A DNA stretch of 64,000 nt from Herbaspirillum rubrisubalbicans. Lineage in GTDB: Bacteria; Pseudomonadota; Gammaproteobacteria; Burkholderiales; Burkholderiaceae_D. Where the stretch lies: NCBI RefSeq assembly GCF_003719195.1, contig NZ_CP024996.1, positions 682,001 to 746,000 of the forward strand, in the 5' to 3' direction. The notes below the pieces were generated by a model that was not told the DNA's origin, searched no databases, and saw nothing but the letters and a program-made list of their open reading frames with translations. Positions 10,890 to 29,101 of this stretch are shown in pieces. Both the position numbers and the translations under genes were made by a program. Numbering within the stretch: position 1 is the stretch's first letter; each line of letters begins with the position of its first letter.

Positions 10890-11768
10890 TCAGCTCGCCT
10901 GTCCCACATCCCCATCCTGTTGCGCCAGGATCTGCCGCGGCACCGCTTGCAGACCGCGCGCCACGCCATTGGGCGGCGGCACGCGCACCGGCTCACTGAG
11001 ATCGGTGACCGAGGAGAGCACGTTGAGGGTATCTTCCGGCGGTGCATCCCAGACCGGATCGTCGATGGCCTCGAAGACGCGCTTCAACTGCGAACCCCAG
11101 CTACGCCGGATCATCTGGAAATACTGGTTCTGCTCATCGATGGTGACGAAGCGGGTCACGGCCAGGTCTTCGCTCTGGTAGACCAGCAGGTCCAGCGGCA
11201 GGCCCACCGAGATATTGGACTTCAGGGTCGAGTCCATCGAGATCAGCGCACACTTGGCGCCTTCATCGAGGGTGGTCTGCGGCGTGACCACGCGGTCGAT
11301 GATGGGCTTGCCGTACTTGGATTCGCCGATCTGGAAATAGGTATTCTCATCGTGCGATTCGATGAAGTTGCCAGCCGAATACATCTGGAACAGGCGGCAA
11401 CGTTCGCCACGGATCTGCCCGCCGAAGATGATGCTGACATTGAAATCGATACCAAACTTGCTCAGCTCGGCGGCCTCGCGGTCATGCACGGCGCGGATGG
11501 CGTCGCCCAGGATCTGCGCGGCCTCGTACATGGTGGTGGCGGTCCAGATGCTGCGGCCTTCGGCATTGGTGCGCTCGGTCAACATCTGACGGATGGATTG
11601 TGAAATCGACAGGTTGCCGGCGGTCATCATGACCATGACGCGGTCGCCCGGATTCTCGTAAACACTCATCTTGCGGAAGGTGCCGATGTGATCGACTCCC
11701 GCATTGGTGCGCGAATCGGACAGGAACACCAGGCCGCTGTTGAGGCGCATGGCTACGCAGTAGGTCAT
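10890..11768 (-). CDS. Proteasome-like peptidase Anbu
   Basis: Member of the Anbu (ancestral beta-subunit) branch of the Ntn-hydrolase proteasome family, 292 residues. The N-terminus MTYCVAMRLNSGLVFLSDSR places Thr2 ready to become the N-terminal nucleophile after Met removal, and FRKMSVY carries the lysine expected in the active site. Further family blocks are FGGQIRGE, YFQIGESKYGKPI and ALISMDSTLKSNISVGLP. Anbu proteins are cytoplasmic, self-assembling and of uncertain activity. In many proteobacteria they sit beside alpha-E, ATP-grasp and transglutaminase genes, exactly as here, where alpha-E and ATP-grasp precede it on the same strand with a 172-base gap. Regulation is not evident. Confidence 0.9.
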   Translation of the reverse strand: MTYCVAMRLNSGLVFLSDSRTNAGVDHIGTFRKMSVYENPGDRVMVMMTAGNLSISQSIRQMLTERTNAEGRSIWTATTMYEAAQILGDAIRAVHDREAAELSKFGIDFNVSIIFGGQIRGERCRLFQMYSAGNFIESHDENTYFQIGESKYGKPIIDRVVTPQTTLDEGAKCALISMDSTLKSNISVGLPLDLLVYQSEDLAVTRFVTIDEQNQYFQMIRRSWGSQLKRVFEAIDDPVWDAPPEDTLNVLSSVTDLSEPVRVPPPNGVARGLQAVPRQILAQQDGDVGQAS

Positions 11769-11816
11769 GATGGAATCTTGAAACGTGGAAACGGAAAGCC
11801 GGATTTTACCGTAAGG

Positions 11817-11842
11817 CCCGGCGCCAAAGCGCGTGCGCCGGG
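11817..11842. other. GC-rich hairpin upstream of the Anbu gene
   Basis: CCCGGCGC (11817-11824) and GCGCCGGG (11835-11842) form a perfect 8-bp stem with a 10-base loop, in the gap between the alpha-E stop and the Anbu start. No T-tract follows on the minus strand, so it is not a standard terminator. It could stabilise or separate the Anbu part of the transcript. Confidence 0.45.
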
Positions 11843-11940
11843 GGCATCTGTCGTGACGTACCTACAGTAACGGCCTGTTTCCGGAAAAGATGACAGTGGC
11901 TGTGCTTCTTTATTGCCATCCAAGCACAGCCAGACATCAT

Positions 11941-12933
11941 TTACGCTGCCAAAGGAACAAGAAAATCGCGGCTGATGCGATTGCCCAGCTCGAAGATGCG
12001 CTCCAGGAATTCGGTCAGCGTATCGTGCAGACCAGCCTCCAGGATTTCCTCGATGCGGGCGAACTTCAGGTCGGCGTGCAGCTTGCCGGCAAAGCGCTCG
12101 GTATCGGCCGAGACATCGTTGCGCACGTGGTGCAGGTTGGAAATCACATTGCCCATGCACGCCAGCAGTGAGCGCGGCATGTCCGCACGCAGGATCAGCA
12201 ACTCAGCCACGCGCTCGGGCGTGATGACATCGCGATAGACCTTGCGGTAGATCTCGAAGCCCGACACCGAACGCAGGATGGCAGCCCAGTAATAGAAGTC
12301 CAGTTGCCCGGCTTCATCGCGTGCCGCCTGGCTTTGCGATTGCACTTGGCCATGACCGTTGTGCTTTTGCGTTTCCTTGGCGCCGTGGAACTTGACGTCG
12401 ATGATGCGCGCCGTGTTGTCGGCCCGCTCCAGGAAGGTGCCCAGGCGGATGAAGTGGAACGCCTCATCTTCCAACATGGTGCCGATGGTCACGCCCCGCG
12501 ACAGATGCGAGCGATGCTTGACCCATTCGAAGAAATCGCTCGGGTTCTGCTCCAGCGCATTGGTCTGCAGGTAGGACTGCATCTTGATCCAGGTGGCGTT
12601 CTGGATTTCCCAGGCTTCGGTGGTCAGCGCACCCCGCACGGCACGTGCATTCTCGCGCGCCTGACGCAGGCAGGAAGCGATCGACGAGGGATTGTTGGGG
12701 TCACGCACCATGAAGTCGATGACATCCTTTTGCGTGAGCTTGTCGTATTTCTGGTTGTAGCCATAGAGCAGTTCCGAGATGCCCAGCACGGCGCGCCAGC
12801 CCTGTTCGGCGTCGTCGGTGGATTGCGGCAGCAATGCGGTCTGCACATGCACGTCCAGCATCCGTGCGGTGTTCTCGGCGCGCTCGGTGTAGCGGGCCAT
12901 CCAGAAGAGGTGATCGGCGGTACGGCTCAGCAT
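11941..12933 (-). CDS. Alpha-E domain protein
   Basis: All-helical alpha-E family protein of 330 residues (COG2307 type). The N-terminal signature MLSRTADHLFWMARYTERAE and a second internal version, LERADNTARIIDVK, are typical. The biochemical role is unknown. Genomic-context work by others (Iyer and colleagues on amidoligases) tied these proteins to peptide synthesis by ATP-grasp enzymes. A longer ORF extends upstream inside the ATP-grasp gene. The ATG at 12933 is chosen because GGAG lies nine bases before it and it follows the ATP-grasp stop by only two bases. Residues about 203-222 form a low-complexity Gln/His-rich insert. Confidence 0.9.
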   Translation of the reverse strand: MLSRTADHLFWMARYTERAENTARMLDVHVQTALLPQSTDDAEQGWRAVLGISELLYGYNQKYDKLTQKDVIDFMVRDPNNPSSIASCLRQARENARAVRGALTTEAWEIQNATWIKMQSYLQTNALEQNPSDFFEWVKHRSHLSRGVTIGTMLEDEAFHFIRLGTFLERADNTARIIDVKFHGAKETQKHNGHGQVQSQSQAARDEAGQLDFYYWAAILRSVSGFEIYRKVYRDVITPERVAELLILRADMPRSLLACMGNVISNLHHVRNDVSADTERFAGKLHADLKFARIEEILEAGLHDTLTEFLERIFELGNRISRDFLVPLAA

Positions 12934-12935
12934 CG

Positions 12936-14363
12936 TTATTTCTCCAGAATCCAGGTGTCCTTGGTGCCGCCGCCCTGCGACGAATTCACCACCAGCGAGC
13001 CTTCCTTCAAGGCCACGCGCGTCAAGCCGCCCTTGACCATGGTGATCTGCTTGCCCGACAAGACGAACGGGCGTAGATCCAGGTGGCGCGGCGCGATGCC
13101 GGACTCCACATAGGTCGGGCACACGGACAGGGCCAGCGTGGGCTGGGCGATGTAGCCATCGGGCTTGGCGATGATGCGTGCGCGGAAGTCCTCGATTTCC
13201 TGCTTGGTCGAGGCCGGGCCGACTAGCATCCCGTAGCCGCCGGCGCCGTGCACTTCCTTGACCACCAGCTGTTCCAGGTTGGCCAGGGTGTAGGACAGAT
13301 CCTCCTTCTTGCGGCACTGGTAGGTGGGCACGTTGTTGAGGATGGGTTCTTCGGACAGATAGAAGCGCACCATGTCCGGCACATACGGATAGATCGACTT
13401 GTCGTCGGCCACACCCGTGCCGATCGCATTGGTCAGCGTCACCTTGCCGGCGCGATAGGCCTGCAGCAGGCCCGGCACACCCAGCGCAGAATCGGGACGG
13501 AAAGCCAGCGGATCGAGGAAGTCGTCATCGATGCGGCGATAGATCACATCGACCCGCTTGGGGCCGCGCGTGGTGCGCATGTAGACCACGTTGTCCTTGA
13601 CGAACAGGTCCTGGCCCTCGACCAGCTCCACACCCATCTGCTGGGCCAGGAAAGCATGTTCGAAGTAGGCCGAGTTGTACATGCCCGGGGTCATCACCAC
13701 CACCGTCGGATCGGTCACGCCAGCCGGTGCCACTGAACGCAGATTGTCCAGCAGCAGGTCGGGATAGTGATCGACCGGCGCGATCTTGTGGCGCTTGAAG
13801 AGGTCGGGGAAGAGCCGCATCATCATCTTGCGGTTCTCCAGCATGTAGGACACCCCGGACGGTACGCGCAGGTTGTCTTCCAGGACGTAAAATTCACCTT
13901 CGCCTGCGCGCACGATATCGACACCCGCGATGTGGGCGTAGATGTCGTTGACTACGTTCACATCCTGCATCTCGCGCCGGTACTGCGCGTTCTGGAAGAT
14001 CTGCTCGGGCGGGATGATGCCGGCCTTGACGATCTTCTGCTCGTGATAGATGTCATGGATGAACATGTTGAGCGTTCTGACACGCTGGACCAGTCCCGCT
14101 TCCAGCTTGGCCCATTCGGCCTTGTGGATGATGCGCGGGATGATGTCGAAGGGGATCAGGCGCTCGGTGCCGGCATCGTTGCCATAGACGGCGAAGGTAA
14201 TGCCGACGCGACGGAAGATCAGGTCGGATTCGGCACGTTTGCGGGCGATCACTTCGGGCGATTGCGCCGAAAGCCAGCTGGCGAATTCTGCATAGTGCTG
14301 ACGCACTTGACCTGCTTCGCTGCTTGCGCCTGCTGAATACATCTCATCAAAAAAATGTGCCAT
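12936..14363 (-). CDS. Circularly permuted ATP-grasp ligase, stand-alone form
   Basis: Predicted carboxylate-amine ligase of the circularly permuted type 2 ATP-grasp family (COG2308 type), 475 residues. Recognisable blocks are FAVYGNDAGTERLIPFD, YVLEDNLRVPSGVSYM, MTPGMYNSAYFEHAFLA, YRRIDDDFLDP, NAIGTGVADDKSIYPYVP, VVKEVHGAGGYGML with ATP-binding residues, and the ending VVNSSQGGGTKDTWILEK. It is thought to form peptide bonds on a small molecule or protein; the substrate is unknown. It is the first gene of ATP-grasp, alpha-E, Anbu on the minus strand. A paralogue fused to alpha-E lies at 20985. The leader contains a TTCCCG/CGGGAA hairpin at 14378-14396. Confidence 0.92.
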   Translation of the reverse strand: MAHFFDEMYSAGASSEAGQVRQHYAEFASWLSAQSPEVIARKRAESDLIFRRVGITFAVYGNDAGTERLIPFDIIPRIIHKAEWAKLEAGLVQRVRTLNMFIHDIYHEQKIVKAGIIPPEQIFQNAQYRREMQDVNVVNDIYAHIAGVDIVRAGEGEFYVLEDNLRVPSGVSYMLENRKMMMRLFPDLFKRHKIAPVDHYPDLLLDNLRSVAPAGVTDPTVVVMTPGMYNSAYFEHAFLAQQMGVELVEGQDLFVKDNVVYMRTTRGPKRVDVIYRRIDDDFLDPLAFRPDSALGVPGLLQAYRAGKVTLTNAIGTGVADDKSIYPYVPDMVRFYLSEEPILNNVPTYQCRKKEDLSYTLANLEQLVVKEVHGAGGYGMLVGPASTKQEIEDFRARIIAKPDGYIAQPTLALSVCPTYVESGIAPRHLDLRPFVLSGKQITMVKGGLTRVALKEGSLVVNSSQGGGTKDTWILEK

Positions 14364-14621
14364 AGATTTGCTTCGTGTTCCCGTGGGGAGCGGGAATCTT
14401 TCTAAGTAGGTTGTAACGAAAACAGAGGCGGTGGGTACGGCAAAACTACAGCGTGGGTGCAGCGTGAAGCGATGGCTCTAAGGGACTGCGGCGGCACGCC
14501 AGAGCCTGCGTGCATGAAGAAAGACTAACAGAGGCATGAAATTTTTGACAGTGGAAAATTGCATGGTTTTGCTCCTCACATGCGCGGGCCTGCTGCCACG
14601 CAAAGCCGGCCCGCACCGGTT

Positions 14622-15065
14622 TCAGGTGGTCCACGGTGTGGCGGGCGGCACCGCGCAGGGGGCCGGCATCTCGATGGTCTTGAAGTCGGCCGGACTAACG
14701 ATTTCCAGGTATTCCATGTCGGGCGAATAGTCGAACAGGAAGTGCACGATGCCCGGTCGCTGGTGCACGCAATCGCCAGCCTTGACCAGCGTGACTTCGG
14801 TCTCGTACATGAAGCGCGCCCAACCTTTCAACATGATGACGATATGGAAGTTGGCCTCGTGCCGATGCCAGCCGGTGCCATTCTCCGGCGCCATGTTGGC
14901 CTTGACCAGTTGCGCCACCACCTGACCGCCGGTGGCAGCGGCGATGCCCAGGTCGCGGTACAGGAAGAAGTCGCGCAGCCCCCCGGTTTCATAGGGAGTG
15001 TCGCCCTCGCTGACATGCGAGAAGGTGTTTTGCGCCAGTACGCTTGCATCGGCTACGGTATTCAT
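14622..15065 (-). CDS. Cupin-fold protein
   Basis: Small single-domain cupin of 147 residues. The first motif is GTGWHRHEANFHIVIMLKGWARF, with the metal-type histidines and glutamate, and the second region is GDCVHQRPGIVHFLFDYSPDMEYLEI. It probably binds a metal ion and a small ligand or carries out an oxygenase or isomerase step, but no reaction can be assigned. An ATG three codons earlier exists. The start at 15065 is chosen because AAAGGA sits eight bases before it. It lies upstream of the ATP-grasp gene on the same strand, separated by 258 bases, so co-transcription is uncertain. Confidence 0.82.
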   Translation of the reverse strand: MNTVADASVLAQNTFSHVSEGDTPYETGGLRDFFLYRDLGIAAATGGQVVAQLVKANMAPENGTGWHRHEANFHIVIMLKGWARFMYETEVTLVKAGDCVHQRPGIVHFLFDYSPDMEYLEIVSPADFKTIEMPAPCAVPPATPWTT

Positions 15066-15153
15066 CACATCCATCCTTTCTGCGGTCTCCCGCCATGGGC
15101 CTGCGACAAAAACGGGCGCGATTTTTTCTTGCTGCTGTTAGCGTGGCTGCGCC

Positions 15154-15810
15154 CTAGAATTCCACGTCCAGTTCGTCGATATCCTCCGGTTCCTTCTTCG
15201 CCGCCATGATCCACTGCTGCATTTCCGGCATGGCCATGATGCGCTTGGCATAGGCGGTGCAGATGGGGTCCAGCTTGACGTCATAGGTCATGAAGCGCGT
15301 CACCACCGGGGCATACATGGCATCAGCCATGGTGCGCTGTTCGCCGAACAGGAAGGGCCCGCCATACTTGGCCAGGCATTCCTTCCAGATGGTGGTGATG
15401 CGCACGATGTCGGCTTCGGCGCGCGACCACACCTTGAAGTTGGGGAAGTGACCCTTGAGATTCATCGGCAGCGCCGCGCGCAGGGCCGAGAAGCCCGAAT
15501 GCATTTCGCCGCACACCGAGCGGCAATGCGCACGGGCGGCCAGGTCGGCCGGCAGCAGCTTGGCGCCGGGGCGGATTTCATTGAGATATTCGGCAATGGC
15601 CAGCGTATCCCACACCAGTACGTTGCCATGGTGCAGGCTCGGTACCAGGATGGAGGAAGACAGCAGCAGGATCTCTGCCCGTGCCGACGGGTCGTCCGGC
15701 GGCACGATGTCTTCTTCGAAGGAGAGTCCGGCGAACTTGGCCATGAGCCAGCCGCGCAGGGACCACGAGGAGTAGTTCTTGCTGGTGATGCGCAAAGTCG
15801 TCTTAGGCAT
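15154..15810 (-). CDS. Glutathione S-transferase family protein
   Basis: 218 residues with a thioredoxin-like N-terminal domain (TLRITSKNYSSWSLRGWLMAK; ILVPSLHHGNVLVWDTLAIAEYL, where the ESxAI glutathione-binding element reads DTLAI) and a helical C-terminal domain (GGPFLFGEQRTMADAMYAPVVTRF, the N-capping box region). Likely a cytosolic detoxification or conjugation enzyme; the substrate is unknown. It is on the same strand as the cupin, 88 bases upstream of it, and divergent from phaZ. Confidence 0.88.
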   Translation of the reverse strand: MPKTTLRITSKNYSSWSLRGWLMAKFAGLSFEEDIVPPDDPSARAEILLLSSSILVPSLHHGNVLVWDTLAIAEYLNEIRPGAKLLPADLAARAHCRSVCGEMHSGFSALRAALPMNLKGHFPNFKVWSRAEADIVRITTIWKECLAKYGGPFLFGEQRTMADAMYAPVVTRFMTYDVKLDPICTAYAKRIMAMPEMQQWIMAAKKEPEDIDELDVEF

Positions 15811-16013
15811 GTCAGTCCTTTATCTGTTTTGTGCAGGTTGACTTTGGGCACGCTACCGCGTGAGCGGCGGTGTCTTGTTCATCATTTCATCATCTTGCTT
15901 CACCCTGTCTGCGCATCAGGGCGGGCACAGCCGTTGAACCGGCATGTCAGCATTTTGCTTGCAAAGCTTGTGCCAGCTCGCGGGAACCACAGCGGGGCGC
16001 GACAACCCATCAG

Positions 16014-16029
16014 TGGCATGACAATTGCA
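16014..16029 (+). promoter_or_regulatory. Sigma-54 (RpoN) promoter upstream of the PHB depolymerase gene
   Basis: TGGCATGACAATTGCA matches the sigma-54 -24/-12 consensus TGGCACG-N4-TTGCW at all fixed positions except one (T for C at the sixth), with the required GG-N10-GC spacing. It lies 65 bases before the phaZ start, in the correct orientation, with a predicted start point near 16040. A GCTT-gca-AAGC inverted repeat lies upstream near 15958. An enhancer-binding activator would be required. Confidence 0.7.
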
Positions 16030-16094
16030 TCGATGACCAGGCGAGCGGCAGTCTAGGAACCCAATAAAGAGACACTCCCGAGGGCGGCCTTTTC

Positions 16095-17321
16095 ATGATC
16101 AATACCTATCAGCTCTATCAGAACTACGCCGACGCCACCGATCCGCTGCGGGCCTGTGCCCGCCTGATGGCGCCCCTGCTGGGAACCACCTGGCCCGGCG
16201 TGCCGGTCAATCCCTACCTGCGCAAGATGGCCTCGGCCTGCGAGGTGTTTGCCCGCACCCAACTGACCCATGTGCGGCCACCCTTCGGGCTAGGCGAGAT
16301 GGTCGATGGCGAGCGCACAATTACGGTGCATGAAGAGGAGATCAGCGGCACGCCCTTCTGTGGCCTGCTGCATTTCCGCAAGGAAAATGCCGTCAACCAA
16401 CCCAAGGTCTTGGTGGTGGCGCCCATGTCAGGCCACTTCGCCACGCTCTTGCGCGGCACCGTCAAGACGCTCCTGCGCGACCATGACGTCTACATCACCG
16501 ACTGGCGCAATGCGCGTGACATTGCCCTGGCGCATGGTCGCTTCGGCCTGGATGAATACGTTTCCCACGTCATCGATTTTCTCGATGTACTGGGGCCGGG
16601 TGCGCATCTGCTGGCGGTATGCCAGCCTACGGTGGCCGCCCTGACCGCCGCTGCCGTGATGGCCGAGGCCGATCATCCGGCGCAACCGCGCACCATGACG
16701 CTCATGGCCGGGCCGCTCGATACCCGGGTCAATCCGACCGCCGTCAATGCCCTGGCCAAGAGTAAGCCCATGGCCTGGTTCGAGAAGAACATGATCAGCA
16801 CCGTGCCGGCCCGTCATGCCGGGGGCGGGCGGCGCGTCTATCCGGGCTTCGTGCAGTTGAGCGCCTTCATGAACATGAACCTGAACCGCCACATCGAGGC
16901 CTTTCGCAAGCTCTACCATCACCTGGTCGAGGGCGAAGAGGCGCAGGCGGCGCAGATCAAGGATTTCTACGAAGAGTATTTCGCCATGTCCGACCTGCCG
17001 GCCGAGTTCTACCTGGAAACGGTGCGCCTGGTGTTCCAGGAACATGCGCTGCCGCTGGGCAAGTTGAGCTATGGCCAGCACCTGGTGAACCCGCGCGCCA
17101 TCCGCCGCACCGCGCTCTTTACCATCGAAGGCGAGAAGGACGACATCTGCGCCGTCGGCCAGACCGTGGCCGCACAGGAAATGTGCAGCAACATCCGGCC
17201 CTACATGCGGATGCACCATGTTCAGACGGCCGTGGGGCATTACGGCGTCTTCAACGGGCGGCGCTGGGAAAATGAAATCTATCCGCGCCTACGGGATTTC
17301 ATTAATATGCATCATCGGTGA
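16095..17321 (+). CDS. phaZ: Intracellular poly(3-hydroxybutyrate) depolymerase
   Basis: 408 residues of the intracellular PHB depolymerase family (PhaZ1 type), which mobilises native polymer granules. The alpha/beta-hydrolase nucleophile is a cysteine, Cys176 in AVCQPTVA, as described for intracellular depolymerases. The catalytic aspartate is probably in IEGEKDDICAVGQT and the histidine in AVGHYGVF. VYITDWRNARDI and MTLMAGPLDTRVNPTAVN are also family blocks. No signal peptide is present, consistent with cytoplasmic action on granules. It stands alone between the two ATP-grasp loci, preceded by the sigma-54 promoter at 16014. This suggests nitrogen- or carbon-status control. Confidence 0.92.
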   Translation: MINTYQLYQNYADATDPLRACARLMAPLLGTTWPGVPVNPYLRKMASACEVFARTQLTHVRPPFGLGEMVDGERTITVHEEEISGTPFCGLLHFRKENAVNQPKVLVVAPMSGHFATLLRGTVKTLLRDHDVYITDWRNARDIALAHGRFGLDEYVSHVIDFLDVLGPGAHLLAVCQPTVAALTAAAVMAEADHPAQPRTMTLMAGPLDTRVNPTAVNALAKSKPMAWFEKNMISTVPARHAGGGRRVYPGFVQLSAFMNMNLNRHIEAFRKLYHHLVEGEEAQAAQIKDFYEEYFAMSDLPAEFYLETVRLVFQEHALPLGKLSYGQHLVNPRAIRRTALFTIEGEKDDICAVGQTVAAQEMCSNIRPYMRMHHVQTAVGHYGVFNGRRWENEIYPRLRDFINMHHR

Positions 17322-17348
17322 GACCCTGGCAGGGGGATCATGAGGGAG

Positions 17349-17385
17349 GAAAACTTAGTTTTCCGGATCGCAAGATTAAGTTTTC
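17349..17385. repeat. AT-rich palindromic repeat, copy set 2
   Basis: GAAAACTTAGTTTT at 17349-17362 is identical to the copy at 10832. Here it lies within the near-perfect palindrome GGAAAACTTAGTTTTCC. TAAGTTTTC at 17377-17385 pairs perfectly with GAAAACTTA at 17349-17357, giving a 9-bp hairpin with a 19-base loop. The element starts 28 bases after the phaZ stop and about 115 bases before the transglutaminase-DUF2126 gene. It could terminate phaZ or act as an operator for the downstream operon. Confidence 0.7.
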
Positions 17386-17498
17386 ACCAGGAAGGTAATA
17401 AGGCGGTAAGAAAAACAAGGTATGCATGACATTGCTGTCTGCATGTCGCCAACAACCAAGCCCCGCGCTTGATCATTTGCTTGTCGTAAAGGAATTCC

Positions 17499-20882
<3,384 letters not shown>

Positions 20883-20984
20883 AACTGAGCCGGGCGCCGT
20901 CCCCGGCGCGACGCGCAGCCGCTTGCGTGTCGCGCCGCATGGGAAATCTCCCCTGCGCACACGCAGCCCGGTCGCCAAACACTT

Positions 20985-23486
20985 ATGTCCCAGCGTCTAC
21001 TGGAAAGCTATCCGGTAGCCAGCGATCGTTACGACGAAATGCTGGCGGCCGACGGCCGCCTGCGCCCGCACTGGCGAACGCTGATCGACCAGCTTGAAAA
21101 CCTCTCGCCGGAGATGCTGCGCCGGCGCGCCACCGAGGTGCGCGACGCCATCGCTTCGGATGGCGTGACCTACAACGTCTATGCCGACCCCAAGGGTGCC
21201 AACCGGCCGTGGGAACTGGATCTGTTGCCGCATCTGGTGTCCTCGGAGGAATGGGATTTCCTGGAGCGCGCCGTGGCCCAGCGGGCGCGCTTGATGAATG
21301 GCCTCCTGGCCGATATCTACGGGCCCCAGAGCCTGATCGCCGAAGGCCTGCTGCCGCCTGCGCTGGTGTTCGGCCAGCATGGTTACCTGATGCCCTGTCA
21401 TGGCTGGCAGCCACCGGGTGGGGTACACCTGCACGCCTATGCGATCGACCTGGCGCGTTCGGCCGATGGCACCTGGTGGGTGGTGTCGGACCGCACGCAA
21501 GGTCCGTCCGGCACCGGCTATGCGCTGCAGAACCGCCAGATCATGGCGCGCGCCATGCCCGAGGCCTTGCGCGACATGCACGTGGAGTCCCCGCACCGCT
21601 ACTTCCATACCCTGCGCGCGATGCTGACGCGCCTGGCGCCGGCCCAGGGCGAGGTGCCGCTGATCGTGCTGCTCACGCCCGGCCCCTATAACGAAACCTA
21701 TTCCGAACACGCCTTCCTGGCCCATACGCTGGGCTTCCCGCTGGTGGAAGGGGTGGACCTGACGGTGCGCAGCGACCAGGTATTCCTGAAGACCTTGAAT
21801 GGCCTGCGTCGGGTCCACGCTATTCTGCGCCGCATGGACGACGATTATTGCGATCCGCTGGAGTTGCGCGCCGATTCAGCGCTGGGCGTGCCGGGTCTGA
21901 CCCAGGCCGCGCGCCTGGGCAATGTGGTCATCGCCAATTCGCTGGGTAGCGGCGTGCTGGAATCGACGGCGCTGCATGGCTTCCTGCCGGCCATCAATGA
22001 ACGGCTGTATGGTCAATCACTGCTGTTGCCTTCGGTGGCCTCCTGGTGGTGTGGGGAAAAACCGGCGCTCGACTACACCCTGGCGCACATCGATGAACTG
22101 GTGATCGTGCCGGCGTTTTCTTCGATGCGGATGCAGCCGGTATTCGGTCATACGCTCACCGGCGCGGCGCGCCGACGCCTGATCGAAAGCCTGCAATTGC
22201 AACCGCACGCCTATGCTGCGCAGGAATGGGTGCGCCTGTCGCAGGCGCCGGTGATGTCGCGCAGTGGCGACTATCGCTTGATGAATCGCACCATCAGCCT
22301 GCGCGTGTTTGCGGTGGCCGATGGCGAAGGTGGTTATCAGGTCATGCCGGGCGGACTCACGCGCGTGGCGCCGCGTCAGCGGCGCGACGTGGTGTCGATG
22401 CAGCAGGGCGGCACCAGCAAGGATGTCTGGGTGCTGCGCGAAGAAGAGCGCCCCGACTGGGTTGGCGCTGAGGAGGGGCAAAATGAAAGAAACGTCACCC
22501 TCATCAAGGGCACCGTCGATGTCTCTTCCCACTCGGGCGAGAATCTGTTCTGGATGGGACGTTATTCGGAACGGGTGAAGAATCTTTCCCGCTTGCTGCG
22601 CACCACCTTGCAATACACCATGGATGGCCAGAGCGAGAGTCGCGGCATGTTGGGCAGCGTGTCGTGGATCTGTAGTCAGTTGGGGGTGCAGATGCCCAAG
22701 TCCGAACCGCGGCCCACCATCACCGGCTTGCAGCAGAGCTTGCAGGCGGCGGTGGTCGATCCCTCGGCGCCGGTGAGCGTGGCCACGCAATTGCGCCAAC
22801 TCGCCAATGCCGCCTACCAGGTGCGCGAACACCTGTCGCTGGACAACTGGCACGCCCTGACCAAGATGCCGGCCATGGTGCAGGAACGCATCAACACGCC
22901 GGCGGCCGCGCAACAGGTGCTGGGCAATGTGATCGATGCCTGCTCGGGCTTGGCCGGTCATGCGCTGGACGACATGACGCGCGATGCCGGCTGGCAGTTC
23001 CTGATGGTGGGACGTCATATCGAGCGCATGGCCAATATGGCCACGCTGTTGGACAACTTCTTGCGTCTGCCGCCGCAGCGCCAGACGGCTGCGCTGTCCT
23101 GGCTGCTGGAGGCGGCCAGCAGCATCGTCACCTATCGCGTGCGCTACCGGCGCACGCCGGAGTGGCTGCCAGTGTTGCACCTGCTGGTGTTCGATGTGAG
23201 CAATCCGCATGGCATGGCTTACCAGTTCCGCATGTTGCAGCAGTACATCAATGAGATCGCGCAGCAACTGGGTTTGCTCAGCATGAGCATTCCTACTCAC
23301 CTGTCGAGCCAGCTGGAGGCGATGAACCTCAACGAGTTCGCCCACGATCATCCCAACGTGGAACAGGCCAATGCCCGCCTGACGCAATTGATGCGCGATG
23401 CGGTCAGCGGTGGCTATATGCTTTCCGACGACCTGTCACGCCACTACTTCACGCCGCTGACCGCACCGGTCAGCCAAGGGGTGTGA
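20985..23486 (+). CDS. Circularly permuted ATP-grasp fused to alpha-E domain
   Basis: 833 residues. Residues about 1-490 are a type 2 circularly permuted ATP-grasp domain: YNVYADPKGANRPWELDLLP, TPGPYNETYSEHAFLAHTLG, LRRMDDDYCDPLELRADSALG, ANSLGSGVLES, and QQGGTSKDVWVL near the domain end. Residues from about 515 form an alpha-E domain (GENLFWMGRYSERVKNLSRLL; HIERMANMATLLDNFL). The stand-alone genes at 12936 and 11941 correspond to its two halves, so the window holds the split and fused versions. A predicted ligase of unknown substrate. It lies 102 bases after the transglutaminase-DUF2126 gene and one base before the next transglutaminase gene. Confidence 0.92.
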   Translation: MSQRLLESYPVASDRYDEMLAADGRLRPHWRTLIDQLENLSPEMLRRRATEVRDAIASDGVTYNVYADPKGANRPWELDLLPHLVSSEEWDFLERAVAQRARLMNGLLADIYGPQSLIAEGLLPPALVFGQHGYLMPCHGWQPPGGVHLHAYAIDLARSADGTWWVVSDRTQGPSGTGYALQNRQIMARAMPEALRDMHVESPHRYFHTLRAMLTRLAPAQGEVPLIVLLTPGPYNETYSEHAFLAHTLGFPLVEGVDLTVRSDQVFLKTLNGLRRVHAILRRMDDDYCDPLELRADSALGVPGLTQAARLGNVVIANSLGSGVLESTALHGFLPAINERLYGQSLLLPSVASWWCGEKPALDYTLAHIDELVIVPAFSSMRMQPVFGHTLTGAARRRLIESLQLQPHAYAAQEWVRLSQAPVMSRSGDYRLMNRTISLRVFAVADGEGGYQVMPGGLTRVAPRQRRDVVSMQQGGTSKDVWVLREEERPDWVGAEEGQNERNVTLIKGTVDVSSHSGENLFWMGRYSERVKNLSRLLRTTLQYTMDGQSESRGMLGSVSWICSQLGVQMPKSEPRPTITGLQQSLQAAVVDPSAPVSVATQLRQLANAAYQVREHLSLDNWHALTKMPAMVQERINTPAAAQQVLGNVIDACSGLAGHALDDMTRDAGWQFLMVGRHIERMANMATLLDNFLRLPPQRQTAALSWLLEAASSIVTYRVRYRRTPEWLPVLHLLVFDVSNPHGMAYQFRMLQQYINEIAQQLGLLSMSIPTHLSSQLEAMNLNEFAHDHPNVEQANARLTQLMRDAVSGGYMLSDDLSRHYFTPLTAPVSQGV

Positions 23487-23487
23487 G

Positions 23488-24441
23488 ATGAGCCCGATGC
23501 ACGAGATGAGCGAGCGCCACGTCTATCGCATCCACCACCAGACCACCTACCAGTATTCACTGCCGGTGCGGCTGTCGCACCAGGTATTGCACCTGACGCC
23601 GCGCGAGCTGCCCTGGCAGCATTGCCTGTCGCACACCGTGGATGTGCTGCCCGCGCCGCACCTGGTGCGCAGCTACGAAGACAATTTCGGCAACGTCATC
23701 AAGACCTTTTCGCTGGATACCGACCACACCAGCCTGGACGTGCAGGCCGACTCCTGGGTCGCGCTCACCCCGCGCGGTCAGCCGCAGGAAGTCATGCGCT
23801 GGGATGAGGCGGTCACGCTGATGGCTTATCGCGGCGGCCAACTGATGGCGCCGGGAATGCTGGAAGCATCCAATTTCCTGTTCGAATCTTCGCACGTGCG
23901 CATCAAGCGCGAATTCATCCGTTACGCGGCCGAATGCTTCGGACCCGGCATGTCGGTGGTGGAAGGGGTGCGTGCCTTGATGTTGCGCATCCATGAGGAA
24001 TTCACTTTCGATCCTGCGGCGACCACGGTTTCTACGCCGGTGACCGAGGTGTTCGTCAATCGCCGTGGCGTGTGCCAGGACTTTGCGCACCTGATGCTGT
24101 CTTGCCTGCGCTCCATTGGTCTGGCGGCGCGCTACGTCAGTGGCTATCTGCTGACTGAACCGCCACCGGGACAGGAACGTCTGATCGGGGCCGATGCCTC
24201 GCACGCCTGGGTGTCGGTGTATTGCCCCGGCATCGATGGCACGCAGGGGAGCTGGATCGATGCCGATCCCACCAATGGCATCTTCCCCGATACCAGCCAT
24301 ATCACGCTGGGCTGGGGGCGCGATTTCCTCGACATCTCGCCCTTGCGCGGGGTCTTGATCGGTGGCGGCCAGCAGAGTATGCAGGTGGCTGTGACGGTGT
24401 TGCCGGGCGAAGAGGCGCGGGGCTTGCAATTGTCGATCTGA
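23488..24441 (+). CDS. Transglutaminase family protein, stand-alone
   Basis: 317 residues: an N-terminal beta domain (YRIHHQTTYQYSLPVRLSHQ; DNFGNVIKTFSL) and a transglutaminase core with Cys196 in NRRGVCQDFAHL, His239 in ASHAWVSVY and Asp260 in DADPTNG. The triad is therefore intact. Such proteins act as amide or peptide hydrolases or transferases; the substrate is unknown. It begins one base after the stop of the ATP-grasp-alpha-E fusion, with AAGGGG seven bases before the ATG, so it is the third gene of a tight operon. In-frame ATGs at 23497 and 23506 are possible but have weaker support. Confidence 0.92.
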   Translation: MSPMHEMSERHVYRIHHQTTYQYSLPVRLSHQVLHLTPRELPWQHCLSHTVDVLPAPHLVRSYEDNFGNVIKTFSLDTDHTSLDVQADSWVALTPRGQPQEVMRWDEAVTLMAYRGGQLMAPGMLEASNFLFESSHVRIKREFIRYAAECFGPGMSVVEGVRALMLRIHEEFTFDPAATTVSTPVTEVFVNRRGVCQDFAHLMLSCLRSIGLAARYVSGYLLTEPPPGQERLIGADASHAWVSVYCPGIDGTQGSWIDADPTNGIFPDTSHITLGWGRDFLDISPLRGVLIGGGQQSMQVAVTVLPGEEARGLQLSI

Positions 24442-26787: not shown

Positions 26788-28362
26788 TCAGGTGAGGTCG
26801 TCGAAGAAGGGCGTGCGCGGCATCATGCGAAAGCTCACGCGAAACACGCAGCCCGGATAGCGTGCATCGGTGCAGCGCGGATTGTGGGTGATCTCCAGCA
26901 CGGCGTCGTGCTGTTGCGCGATCTCGCGCACGATGGCTAAGCCCAGGCCGCTGCCGGTGCTGGGCGTGCCGAGGATGCGATAGAAACGTTCGAACACGTT
27001 GGCCCGCTCGGCTACCGGAATGCCGGGGCCATTGTCTTCCACTTCCAGGATGGCCAGCCCGCCGCCTTCATCGGTACGGGCGCGCACGGTGACGCGGCCA
27101 TTGCCATCGTGTGGTGTGTAATGAAGGGCATTATCCAGCAGGTTGGACAATAATTCGCGCAGCATCACCGGGTTGCCGGTGATGAGGATGGGATGGTCGG
27201 GCTGCTCGAATCCGAGATCGATGCGCTGGGTAAATGACATCGGCACCCAGTCCTGCACCACGCTGCGGGCCAGTTCGTTCAGTTCCACCGCGACCATGCC
27301 GCCGGACTGCGATTGCTGGTTCTCGGCGCGGGCCAGCGAGAGTAGCTGGTTGACCAGGCGCGTGGCGGTTTCCGAACTCTTGGCCAGTTGTTCCAGCGAG
27401 CGCCGCACATCGTCCTGGTCGCCCTGGCGCAGCGCCAGTTCGGATTGCATCCGCATTCCGGCCAGCGGGGTTTTCATCTGGTGCGCGGCGTCGGCGATGA
27501 AGCGTTTCTGGATCGCGATGGTCTGCGACAGGCGCGCCAGCATGTCGTTGAGTGAGCGCACCAGCGGCGAGATTTCTTCGGGCACCTGGCCGGAGTCGAT
27601 GGGGGAGAGATCGTCAGGGCGACGAGCACGGATGCGCTGCTGCAATTCCGACAGCGGCGAGAGCCCGCGCGAGAGTGCGAACCAGACCAGCGCTAGCGCC
27701 ACCGGCAGGATCACGAACTGCGGCAGGATCACGCCCTTGATGATTTCATTGGCCAGTTGGGCGCGTTTTTCCAGTGTCTCGCCCACCTGCACCGTGGCCA
27801 GGCGCGGCTCGTGCTGGGCCGCGCGCTGGGCGGCGCTGCGGCGCAGGTCGACTTGCAGGGTGGCGATGCGCACGTCGCTGCCGTGCAGGATGTCATTGCG
27901 GAACTGCACCGTGCCCAGGGTGGCGCGGTCATCGTCGGCGGGCGGCTGGGGCATGTCGACATCGCCTTCGACGTATTCGCCGTTGGGGCCGGTGACCCTG
28001 TAGTAGATATTGTCGATGTCGTCGGCCCGCAGCAGGTCGCGCGCCGAGACCGGCAAGCGCGCCACCACCTTGCCGTTGACTTCGGACACCTGTTGCGCCA
28101 GCACGGTGACGCTGTCTTCCAGGGCGCGGTCGAAGGGCTGGTTGGCGATCGATTGCGCGATCAGGTAGGTGATGGCGATGCTCATCGGCCACAGCAGCAG
28201 CAGCGGGGCCAGCATCCAGTCCAGGATTTCGCCGAAGAGTGAGCGCTGGATGCGCTCCACCGGTTGGGTGGCCAGGGCGGCGCGACGCTTCTTGCGCGGC
28301 GGCGCGGCCGGCGCTGGCGGGGCCGGGTCGGGAGAAGCCGGGGCGGGGTCGCGCGCGGTCAT
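26788..28362 (-). CDS. Sensor histidine kinase (TctE/QseC-like)
   Basis: 524-residue inner-membrane kinase. A Pro/Ala-rich N-terminus precedes TM1 (about 45-70), then a periplasmic sensor region, TM2 (about 215-235), a HAMP-like linker and the kinase core. His294 in FIADAAHQMKTPL is the phospho-acceptor; ELLSNLLDNALHYTP is the N box, VEDNGPGIP the G1 box and GSGLGLAIV the G2 box. The ligand is unknown but is plausibly the solute carried by the symporter encoded downstream. The response regulator gene lies 28 bases upstream; the small symporter subunit starts one base downstream. Confidence 0.92.
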   Translation of the reverse strand: MTARDPAPASPDPAPPAPAAPPRKKRRAALATQPVERIQRSLFGEILDWMLAPLLLLWPMSIAITYLIAQSIANQPFDRALEDSVTVLAQQVSEVNGKVVARLPVSARDLLRADDIDNIYYRVTGPNGEYVEGDVDMPQPPADDDRATLGTVQFRNDILHGSDVRIATLQVDLRRSAAQRAAQHEPRLATVQVGETLEKRAQLANEIIKGVILPQFVILPVALALVWFALSRGLSPLSELQQRIRARRPDDLSPIDSGQVPEEISPLVRSLNDMLARLSQTIAIQKRFIADAAHQMKTPLAGMRMQSELALRQGDQDDVRRSLEQLAKSSETATRLVNQLLSLARAENQQSQSGGMVAVELNELARSVVQDWVPMSFTQRIDLGFEQPDHPILITGNPVMLRELLSNLLDNALHYTPHDGNGRVTVRARTDEGGGLAILEVEDNGPGIPVAERANVFERFYRILGTPSTGSGLGLAIVREIAQQHDAVLEITHNPRCTDARYPGCVFRVSFRMMPRTPFFDDLT

Positions 28363-28390
28363 GGGCGATCAGCGCGAGCGCGCTACCGGT

Positions 28391-29101
<711 letters not shown>

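Follow-up and report, generated by a model that had tools for sequence, protein, structure and literature searches.

Two divergent ATP-grasp/Alpha-E gene sets of Herbaspirillum, one with a putatively non-catalytic ATP-grasp domain, flank a conserved pair of sigma54-like sites

The proteasome-like protein Anbu is usually encoded in an operon together with an ATP-grasp protein, an Alpha-E protein and a transglutaminase (PMC6376114, PMC5666114; these and the other papers are represented here, as throughout, by passages of their text). The Anbu/ATP-grasp/transglutaminase system has been under computational discussion since 2008-2009; according to the same passages the context is described computationally only (PMC6376114, PMC5666114), and, as a first-pass annotation of the locus considered here had rightly remarked on both counts, there is still no established product or substrate. 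The locus in question spans positions 10890 to 24441 of the window, i.e., of the whole 64,000-nucleotide stretch of Herbaspirillum rubrisubalbicans DNA that was analysed (contig NZ_CP024996.1, 682,001 to 746,000), and carries two gene sets of this kind: a split set, in which ATP-grasp and Alpha-E are separate proteins encoded beside Anbu, and a fused set, in which they form a single polypeptide encoded between two transglutaminase genes.

The reading that we favour, to which a probability of roughly one half, slightly better than even, may be assigned, is that the two sets constitute one nitrogen-starvation-induced ligase/hydrolase system, with two modules diverging from a shared sigma54 promoter pair and with one of the two ATP-grasps non-catalytic. 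A split and a fused set with the domains just named had been placed by the first-pass annotation within about 13.5 kb, and Pfam searches bear out the gene and domain calls for six genes out of six; the cupin, glutathione S-transferase (GST)-like and polyhydroxybutyrate (PHB) depolymerase genes occupying the space between the sets had been omitted. The features of the block are the following:

10890..11768, minus strand: Anbu, a proteasome-like Ntn-hydrolase starting with Met-Thr
11941..12933, minus strand: Alpha-E protein of 330 residues (Pfam E 3.3e-98), with two Glu-Arg motifs retained
12936..14363, minus strand: split circularly permuted ATP-grasp (CP-ATP-grasp; Pfam E 6.4e-171), with D149, E162-D-N164, K369 and the GGYG loop intact
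14622..15074, minus strand: cupin-like open reading frame (ORF) between the ATP-grasp and GST genes, present in 17 of the 20 fetched Herbaspirillum stretches
15154..15810, minus strand: GST-like protein (Pfam), first gene of the left arm
15960..15975, minus strand: sigma54 (-24/-12)-like site directed toward the split (left) arm, TGGCACAAGCTTTGCA
16014..16029, plus strand: sigma54 (-24/-12)-like site directed toward the fused (right) arm, TGGCATGACAATTGCA
16095..17321, plus strand: PHB depolymerase (PhaZ), first gene of the right arm
16315..16329, plus strand: tentative NtrC-like palindrome within phaZ, GCACAATTACGGTGC
17499..20882, plus strand: transglutaminase-like domain (Cys180/His229/Asp245) fused to the putative amidoligase DUF2126 (Pfam)
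20985..23486, plus strand: putative pseudo-ATP-grasp fused to Alpha-E, with E162, N164, K369 and the GGYG loop lost
23488..24441, plus strand: stand-alone transglutaminase-like protein (Cys196/His239/Asp260; Pfam)

The state of the two ATP-grasp domains, which in the window are 34% identical, is central to this proposal. The split protein can be aligned over residues 19-474 with the solved CP-ATP-grasp 3n6x (E 7.6e-229), the signature residues being common to both, and displays all the motifs of an active CP-ATP-grasp ligase (D/E-x-N, Lys, glycine-rich loop); the fused domain, which matches 3n6x at E 1.3e-81, has different residues at the metal and loop motifs and retains only D149 of the active-site pattern (positions of both forms follow the numbering of the split protein). 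Among close homologues (the 120 best-listed matches of each type, aligned with the window copies to give 121 sequences each), E162, N164, K369 and the GGYG loop are kept in 121/121 split proteins; E162, N164 and GGYG are kept in none of the 121 fused ones, where N164 is replaced by R in 118 cases and single loop glycines survive in at most 2. In a more distant set (60 fetched stretches plus the window, yielding 38 fused and 39 split sequences), no fused protein has N164 or GGYG and only one has E162, while of the split proteins one is cut before the metal motif, one carries Asp in place of a loop Gly, and the rest keep everything. Classes in these two sets were given by the query, independently of the motif; in a third set, the named loci (the best 80 of 588 confirmed stretches from one scan of genome contigs, mostly Proteobacteria by title and including Labilithrix and Singulisphaera bins), they were assigned by motif, so that the counts obtained there (fused copy without E162, N164 and GGYG in 80/80, all 11 linked split copies intact) depend on the definition. 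Finally, when 20 more Herbaspirillum genomes were fetched, the fused copy proved in 20/20 to be without E162, N164, GGYG and K369 (Val in the window), all of which are present in the split copy in 20/20. The best ATP-grasp locus is intact in 78/78 cases, one of them with a Gly-to-Asp change; such a change, giving the loop GAGDYG, is seen in the split ATP-grasp of L111 and L040 (genome G270), a genome with an Anbu match and without a DUF2126 match.

E162, N164, the loop and the accompanying residues probably form the ATP/Mg site, and the fused ATP-grasp appears to have lost parts needed for ATP use. D149, E162 and N164 may correspond to D318, E330 and N332 of Gss, which we take to be the metal ligands of the Escherichia coli glutathionylspermidine synthetase, in a profile match that is very weak (probability 0.4%, E 0.14); a comparison of the ATP-grasp with Gss as single template was uninformative. 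The prediction that the permuted ATP-grasps are amide formers is likely to hold for the split protein, also in the light of published passages (PMC6376114, PMC5666114), and is not supported for the fused one, which is without N164 and GGYG throughout the sets of 121, 38, 80 and 20 sequences; as regards a loss of ATP-binding residues from both domains, by which that prediction was to be judged, they are largely lost from the fused form and kept in the split one.

A decaying pseudogene was considered as an explanation for these losses and rejected, the fused gene being stop-free in the 20 Herbaspirillum copies with a ratio of nonsynonymous to synonymous substitution rates (dN/dS) of about 0.11. 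Indeed, the fused ATP-grasp domain is under purifying selection (median dN/dS 0.113, range 0.017-0.207 over 20 comparisons; 0.067 for the split domain and 0.053 for purM). At 112 positions the intact form is constant to 97% or more (143 intact and 119 pseudo rows, with some genomes entering twice and the motif also setting the classes of the added rows); the pseudo form keeps 59 of them (at 85% or more) and loses 32 (at 10% or less), 21 being intermediate; the lost positions include E162, N164, D320-D321-K322, G375-G378 and N460-Q463. The phylogeny of the two domains, called for by the first-pass annotation, sets the split sequences as one group against the fused ones (39 split, 38 fused; support 0.985) in a midpoint-rooted FastTree tree, of which only this division is used.

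The distribution of the two forms was surveyed in 299 genomes sampled evenly from the phylum, with counts compiled by hand from per-family scans: a CP-ATP-grasp above cut-off is present in 171, DUF2126 in 92 and an Anbu match in 115. At least two CP-ATP-grasps occur together with DUF2126 in 87 genomes, the former alone in 11, the latter alone in 5 and neither in 196. An intact copy accompanies the dead form in 59/59 genomes whose motifs were checked (39 including the window, and 20 Herbaspirillum), and single-copy genomes, when searched again, yielded the intact form in 24/24; in the genomes checked, a live ATP-grasp is the one partner that is always present with the dead one. At two loci (L098 and L162) a pseudo-ATP-grasp fused to Alpha-E lies with a transglutaminase and without DUF2126 nearby.

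Within the genus, for which the window was compared with the 20 fetched genomes, one stretch of 11.9-14.8 kb holds the two ATP-grasps and the two transglutaminase domains in 20/20 genomes, and because the two sets are linked in all of them the block is not a chance association. Anbu is on the same stretch in 18/20, being cut by a contig end in one genome and located elsewhere in another. Eighteen of the 20, like the window, have Anbu, Alpha-E, ATP-grasp, cupin and GST in this order, diverging from PHB depolymerase, transglutaminase-DUF2126, fused ATP-grasp and transglutaminase; the exceptions within the 18 are one stretch without a cupin match (L148) and one in which Anbu is cut at the contig end (L159). 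The two remaining genomes (G016 and G017) are without GST, cupin and PHB depolymerase, and their sets diverge from gaps of 444 and 344 bp, respectively; Anbu of G017 is located away from the two sets, and that genome has a further, more divergent Anbu copy (54% identity) at G017:C98:8346-9074. The Herbaspirillum order recurs in a sister genus (L052), with an extra transglutaminase before Anbu; elsewhere, both sets stand in series on one strand (G181, G315) or, by their coordinates, far apart on one contig (G065, G101, G215, G310). At three further loci (L079, L080, L085) transglutaminase-DUF2126 adjoins Anbu; two of these also contain genes of the split set, and a fused ATP-grasp is absent from all three.

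The intergenic region between the GST and PHB depolymerase genes (15811-16094) holds two outward-directed sigma54-like sites, which, having GG...GC at -24/-12, conserved and in the correct orientation, qualify as candidate sigma54 promoters. Both sites are present in 20/20 Herbaspirillum genomes, in the window and in L052; the region that holds them lies between the GST and PHB depolymerase genes in 18 genomes and the window, and directly between the sets in the other two. In the 21 Herbaspirillum regions the sites score 19.7-20.7 out of 20.7, values reached by at most 1% of shuffles, and in L052 20.7 and 18.2 (2% of shuffles); in an alignment of 20 GST/phaZ regions no other blocks contain as many invariant columns. 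Among four regions from further afield, both sites occur in L063 and one in L057, and neither is present in L055 or L058. A broad scan of the window with two mismatches allowed does not significantly exceed expectation (21 sites vs 17.8 expected), and the case for sigma54 rests on conservation; a tighter pattern, written after the sites had been seen, gives 2 found vs 0.11 expected. A site right upstream of the split ATP-grasp or of transglutaminase-DUF2126 was also sought in the window and not found, the GST-phaZ gap holding the sites instead. At distant loci, sigma54-like sites at p<=0.05 precede 12/38 split ATP-grasps, 14/45 transglutaminase-DUF2126 genes, 1/38 fused controls and 1/14 Anbu genes, and scores of 18 or more are reached upstream of 42/65 transglutaminase-DUF2126 genes (many of these being Pseudomonas sharing one site, hence not independent), 5/11 split ones and, as control, 4/80 fused ones. 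Perfect NtrC-like palindromes are enriched upstream of the split gene (8/58, 1.7 expected) and of transglutaminase-DUF2126 (10/108, 3.2 expected), and hardly at the control (5/117, 3.2 expected); when one mismatch is allowed, only transglutaminase-DUF2126 stands out (79 vs 50.2 expected, compared to 30 vs 25.1 for split and 53 vs 58.9 for control).

Dependence on NtrC and sigma54, which by analogy may extend to Herbaspirillum, has been reported for homologues in other species. In Burkholderia cenocepacia the NtrC/sigma54-dependent genes include DUF404/407, DUF403 and two transglutaminase genes, as well as a PHB depolymerase and GST pair elsewhere in the genome (PMC5491218); in Pseudomonas putida, PP_2685 (Anbu) and PP_2688 are up on nitrate vs ammonium (PMC8050072), and the response of PP_2686-2688 to nitrogen limitation (PMC7801951) likewise speaks for such control. 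An RpoN site has been predicted in published work for a Bradyrhizobium CP_ATPgrasp_1 gene, and in Paraburkholderia phymatum PHB depolymerases are up under nitrogen starvation, in passages that make no mention of these ATP-grasp sets; passages on Azoarcus, Caulobacter, Sinorhizobium and vesicle-forming Shewanella have no bearing on it. No publication tying both sets to one divergent promoter region was found in the literature searched, which excluded Iyer et al. 2009.

It could be argued that the block houses two independent, parallel amide-forming systems, neighbours by chance, and that the fused ATP-grasp uses ATP via rebuilt residues. K369 is indeed kept in many fused proteins (75/121 close, 12/38 distant and 74/80 named), the fused domain is under selection as described, and the arms are widely separated in the four genomes mentioned above; on the other hand, loss of the metal ligands and GGYG extends to nearly every lineage without a common replacement motif, all 59 genomes checked have the intact copy, and the divergent sigma54-like sites are common to both arms in the genus. 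Independent duplicate systems were rejected because residues are lost from one ATP-grasp and because both sets share a divergent promoter region, and we regard this alternative as improbable. The first-pass idea that one system is present in two versions, whose ATP-grasps are comparable and whose roles can be separated, is likewise not upheld, in view of the residue loss in the fused form, of the shared pair of sigma54-like sites and of a split set without its own transglutaminase.

As to the hydrolytic components, the window Anbu matches the Pfam Proteasome family weakly (4.9e-5), and the solved 'Designed Anbu Protein' and 5nyw at 2.9e-87 and 4.2e-78. Its Thr2, Asp18 and Lys33 are equivalent to Thr1, Asp17 and Lys32 of mature Anbu and are conserved in at least 95% of 14 sequences, window included; it thereby combines the N-terminal Thr, Asp17 and Lys32/33 with Ntn-hydrolase homology, and is 31-76% identical to its matches in other genera. 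PMC6376114 summarizes hypotheses put forward by Valas and Bourne and by Iyer et al., in which the ligases would tag proteins or build the tag, and Anbu would degrade the tagged proteins or remove the tag in nitrogen starvation. The conserved catalytic residues fit this scheme, as do the reaction of Thr1 of Pseudomonas aeruginosa Anbu with epoxomicin (PMC5666114) and the published induction by nitrogen starvation (PMC6376114, PMC8050072); yet the passages of both Anbu studies report no peptidase activity (PMC6376114, PMC5666114), and Anbu is optional, 58 of the 171 CP-ATP-grasp genomes having no match to it, so that tagging and degradation must be judged rather unlikely as the purpose of the system.

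Both transglutaminase-like proteins are predicted to carry a Cys-His-Asp triad, assigned by motif (Cys180/His229/Asp245 and Cys196/His239/Asp260), whose residues are conserved in 95% or more of the sequences compared (44 and 38, respectively). DUF2126 is a putative, glutamine-synthetase-like amidoligase by its Pfam name, reaches only E 0.2 in an hhalign comparison with GCS2, and has many invariant Glu, Arg and His residues; the Glu-Arg motifs of Alpha-E are conserved across homologues (the 47 sequences used for the fused Alpha-E include some split ones), and the best match of Alpha-E to solved structures has only E 0.77. The window departs from the four-gene Anbu operon in that no transglutaminase lies between Alpha-E and Anbu. 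Bact_transglu_N domains number exactly two per genome in 21/21 Herbaspirillum genomes; the right arm contains both of them in the window and in the 20 fetched stretches, and there is no third transglutaminase with this N-terminal domain in the Herbaspirillum genomes searched; the missing operon-type protein is detectable, at 62.5 bits vs a cut-off of 27. A transglutaminase is present between Alpha-E and Anbu in L052 and L111, which are of the same family, and absent in L053. The left arm of Herbaspirillum would thus either do without a transglutaminase or borrow one from the right arm. GC-rich hairpins, found in many Herbaspirillum genomes, are located between Alpha-E and Anbu (11769-11940).

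In the mechanism proposed here for a single system, nitrogen shortage would cause NtrC and sigma54 to turn on both arms, the left one encoding GST, cupin, an active CP-ATP-grasp amide ligase, Alpha-E and Anbu, and the right one PHB depolymerase, transglutaminase-DUF2126 amidoligase, pseudo-ATP-grasp fused to Alpha-E, and transglutaminase. Amide bonds would be made by the active ATP-grasp and perhaps also by DUF2126, and the products hydrolysed or exchanged by the Cys-His-Asp transglutaminases and Anbu; the fused ATP-grasp would perform no ATP chemistry and would act as a binding or scaffolding partner retaining the fold and part of the pocket, so that the dead ATP-grasp with its Alpha-E holds or presents a partner. 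In Herbaspirillum, the right-arm transglutaminases would serve both arms if the left-arm chemistry requires one. Activity of the promoters, transcription through the arms, loss of ATP chemistry, formation of a complex and the direction of the chemistry are what we infer from the gene sequences. Our guess for the product is a peptide-amine conjugate, because spermidine is coupled to peptides by the CP-ATP-grasp ligases of E. coli (Gss and, according to annotation, YgiC and YjfC).

A different use of the same chemistry is suggested by the peptide-spermidine and gamma-glutamyl-amine pathways: in small-molecule nitrogen scavenging, the ligases would attach an amine or a peptide as an activated or protected intermediate, from which transglutaminases or Anbu would free the nitrogen. 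This is a tentative alternative, possible though on the unlikely side; it agrees with the annotation of the E. coli CP-ATP-grasp ligases as peptide-spermidine ligases and with the co-regulation of the B. cenocepacia ATP-grasp set with urea, nitrate and polyamine uptake genes (PMC5491218), but no transporter or oxidase was found within the block, and the profile match between CP-ATP-grasp and Gss is the very weak one given above. A more far-reaching form of the single-system proposal, which we put forward as a speculation with the odds clearly against it, would have an active CP-ATP-grasp and a dead one form an obligate pair of ancient origin. The dead ATP-grasp with its Alpha-E would be dedicated to a non-catalytic role, as partner, carrier or platform that presents the substrate; on it the active ATP-grasp and DUF2126 would build a nitrogen-starvation product, to be released by transglutaminases and Anbu.

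Several observations weigh against one system with a non-catalytic ATP-grasp and a shared promoter pair. The assignment of the ATP site draws on motifs, on homology to 3n6x and on the presumed Gss metal ligands; one distant pseudo form (L067) retains E162, and the K369 kept in many relatives may mean that some nucleotide contact survives there. Of the 80 named loci, for which the search for an intact copy covered the locus itself, 11 only have a linked one. Moreover, G154 and G223, the two seen among the 11 genomes with two ATP-grasps and no DUF2126, carry a pseudo-ATP-grasp without a DUF2126 match, and no fused ATP-grasp is present at 8/45 DUF2126 loci (one of which ends at DUF2126 with the contig), so that the right arm is not indivisible. 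With respect to regulation, NtrC-like palindromes in the window, including the one in phaZ, are at chance level (3 found, 3.4 expected); the gaps between phaZ and transglutaminase-DUF2126 (177 bp) and between cupin and split ATP-grasp (258 bp) could hold other promoters, and use of the sigma54-like sites, with transcripts crossing phaZ or GST into the ATP-grasp genes, is assumed. Anbu may be regulated or transcribed apart: hairpins precede it, in P. putida under nitrogen limitation PP_2686-2688 are up 11 to 37-fold but PP_2685 only 1.1 to 4.8-fold (PMC7801951), and the Anbu promoter tested there was nitrogen-agnostic (PMC8050072). In the passages on the proteins themselves, Yersinia pull-downs gave no stable complex among Anbu-operon proteins (PMC6376114) and protein degradation is favoured for Anbu (PMC5666114); the undetected peptidase activity bears on the hydrolytic role proposed for Anbu as well.

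The remaining observations concern annotation and neighbourhood. The Alpha-E ORF extends over 11941-13317 (minus strand), with the domain beginning at ORF residue 129 (Met), and the likely start is the ATG at 12933; NCBIfam models gave no match at E 0.001 to the six system proteins. For the window split ATP-grasp, identity to a cluster labelled Herbaspirillum huttiense is 99%; the top homologues of the fused one, among the matches listed, are from Herbaspirillum. Beside the right arm, a sensor kinase and a response regulator (26788-29101) adjoin a VC_2705-type sodium symporter.

If one ATP-grasp is non-catalytic and both arms respond to nitrogen, failures with single proteins become easier to explain; a pseudo-ATP-grasp that many Proteobacteria retain alongside an active one would, if true, be a clear case of a bacterial pseudoenzyme.

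When compared with the known systems, the window is like the Anbu operon in that ATP-grasp, Alpha-E and Anbu are in identical order, and unlike it in that the Herbaspirillum operon is without a transglutaminase, is preceded by GST and cupin, and is paired with a divergent second operon. With respect to 3n6x, labelled 'putative glutathionylspermidine synthase' and presumably from Methylobacillus, it is the split protein that shares the signature residues and the fused one that differs at the metal and loop motifs. A similarly spaced D...E-x-N pattern is common to the window ATP-grasp and to Gss, YgiC and YjfC of E. coli; however, profile comparison with Gss reveals no significant sequence relation (E 0.14), and the Gss, YgiC and YjfC stretches seen are without transglutaminase-DUF2126, Alpha-E and Anbu alongside. 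The likeness extends to the NtrC/sigma54 regulons of B. cenocepacia and P. putida, which, in the passages describing them, comprise ATP-grasp, Alpha-E and transglutaminase genes and, in B. cenocepacia, also PHB depolymerase and GST; there the locus tags of the latter pair are far from the ATP-grasp ones, whereas in Herbaspirillum the PHB depolymerase and GST genes are placed between the two arms.

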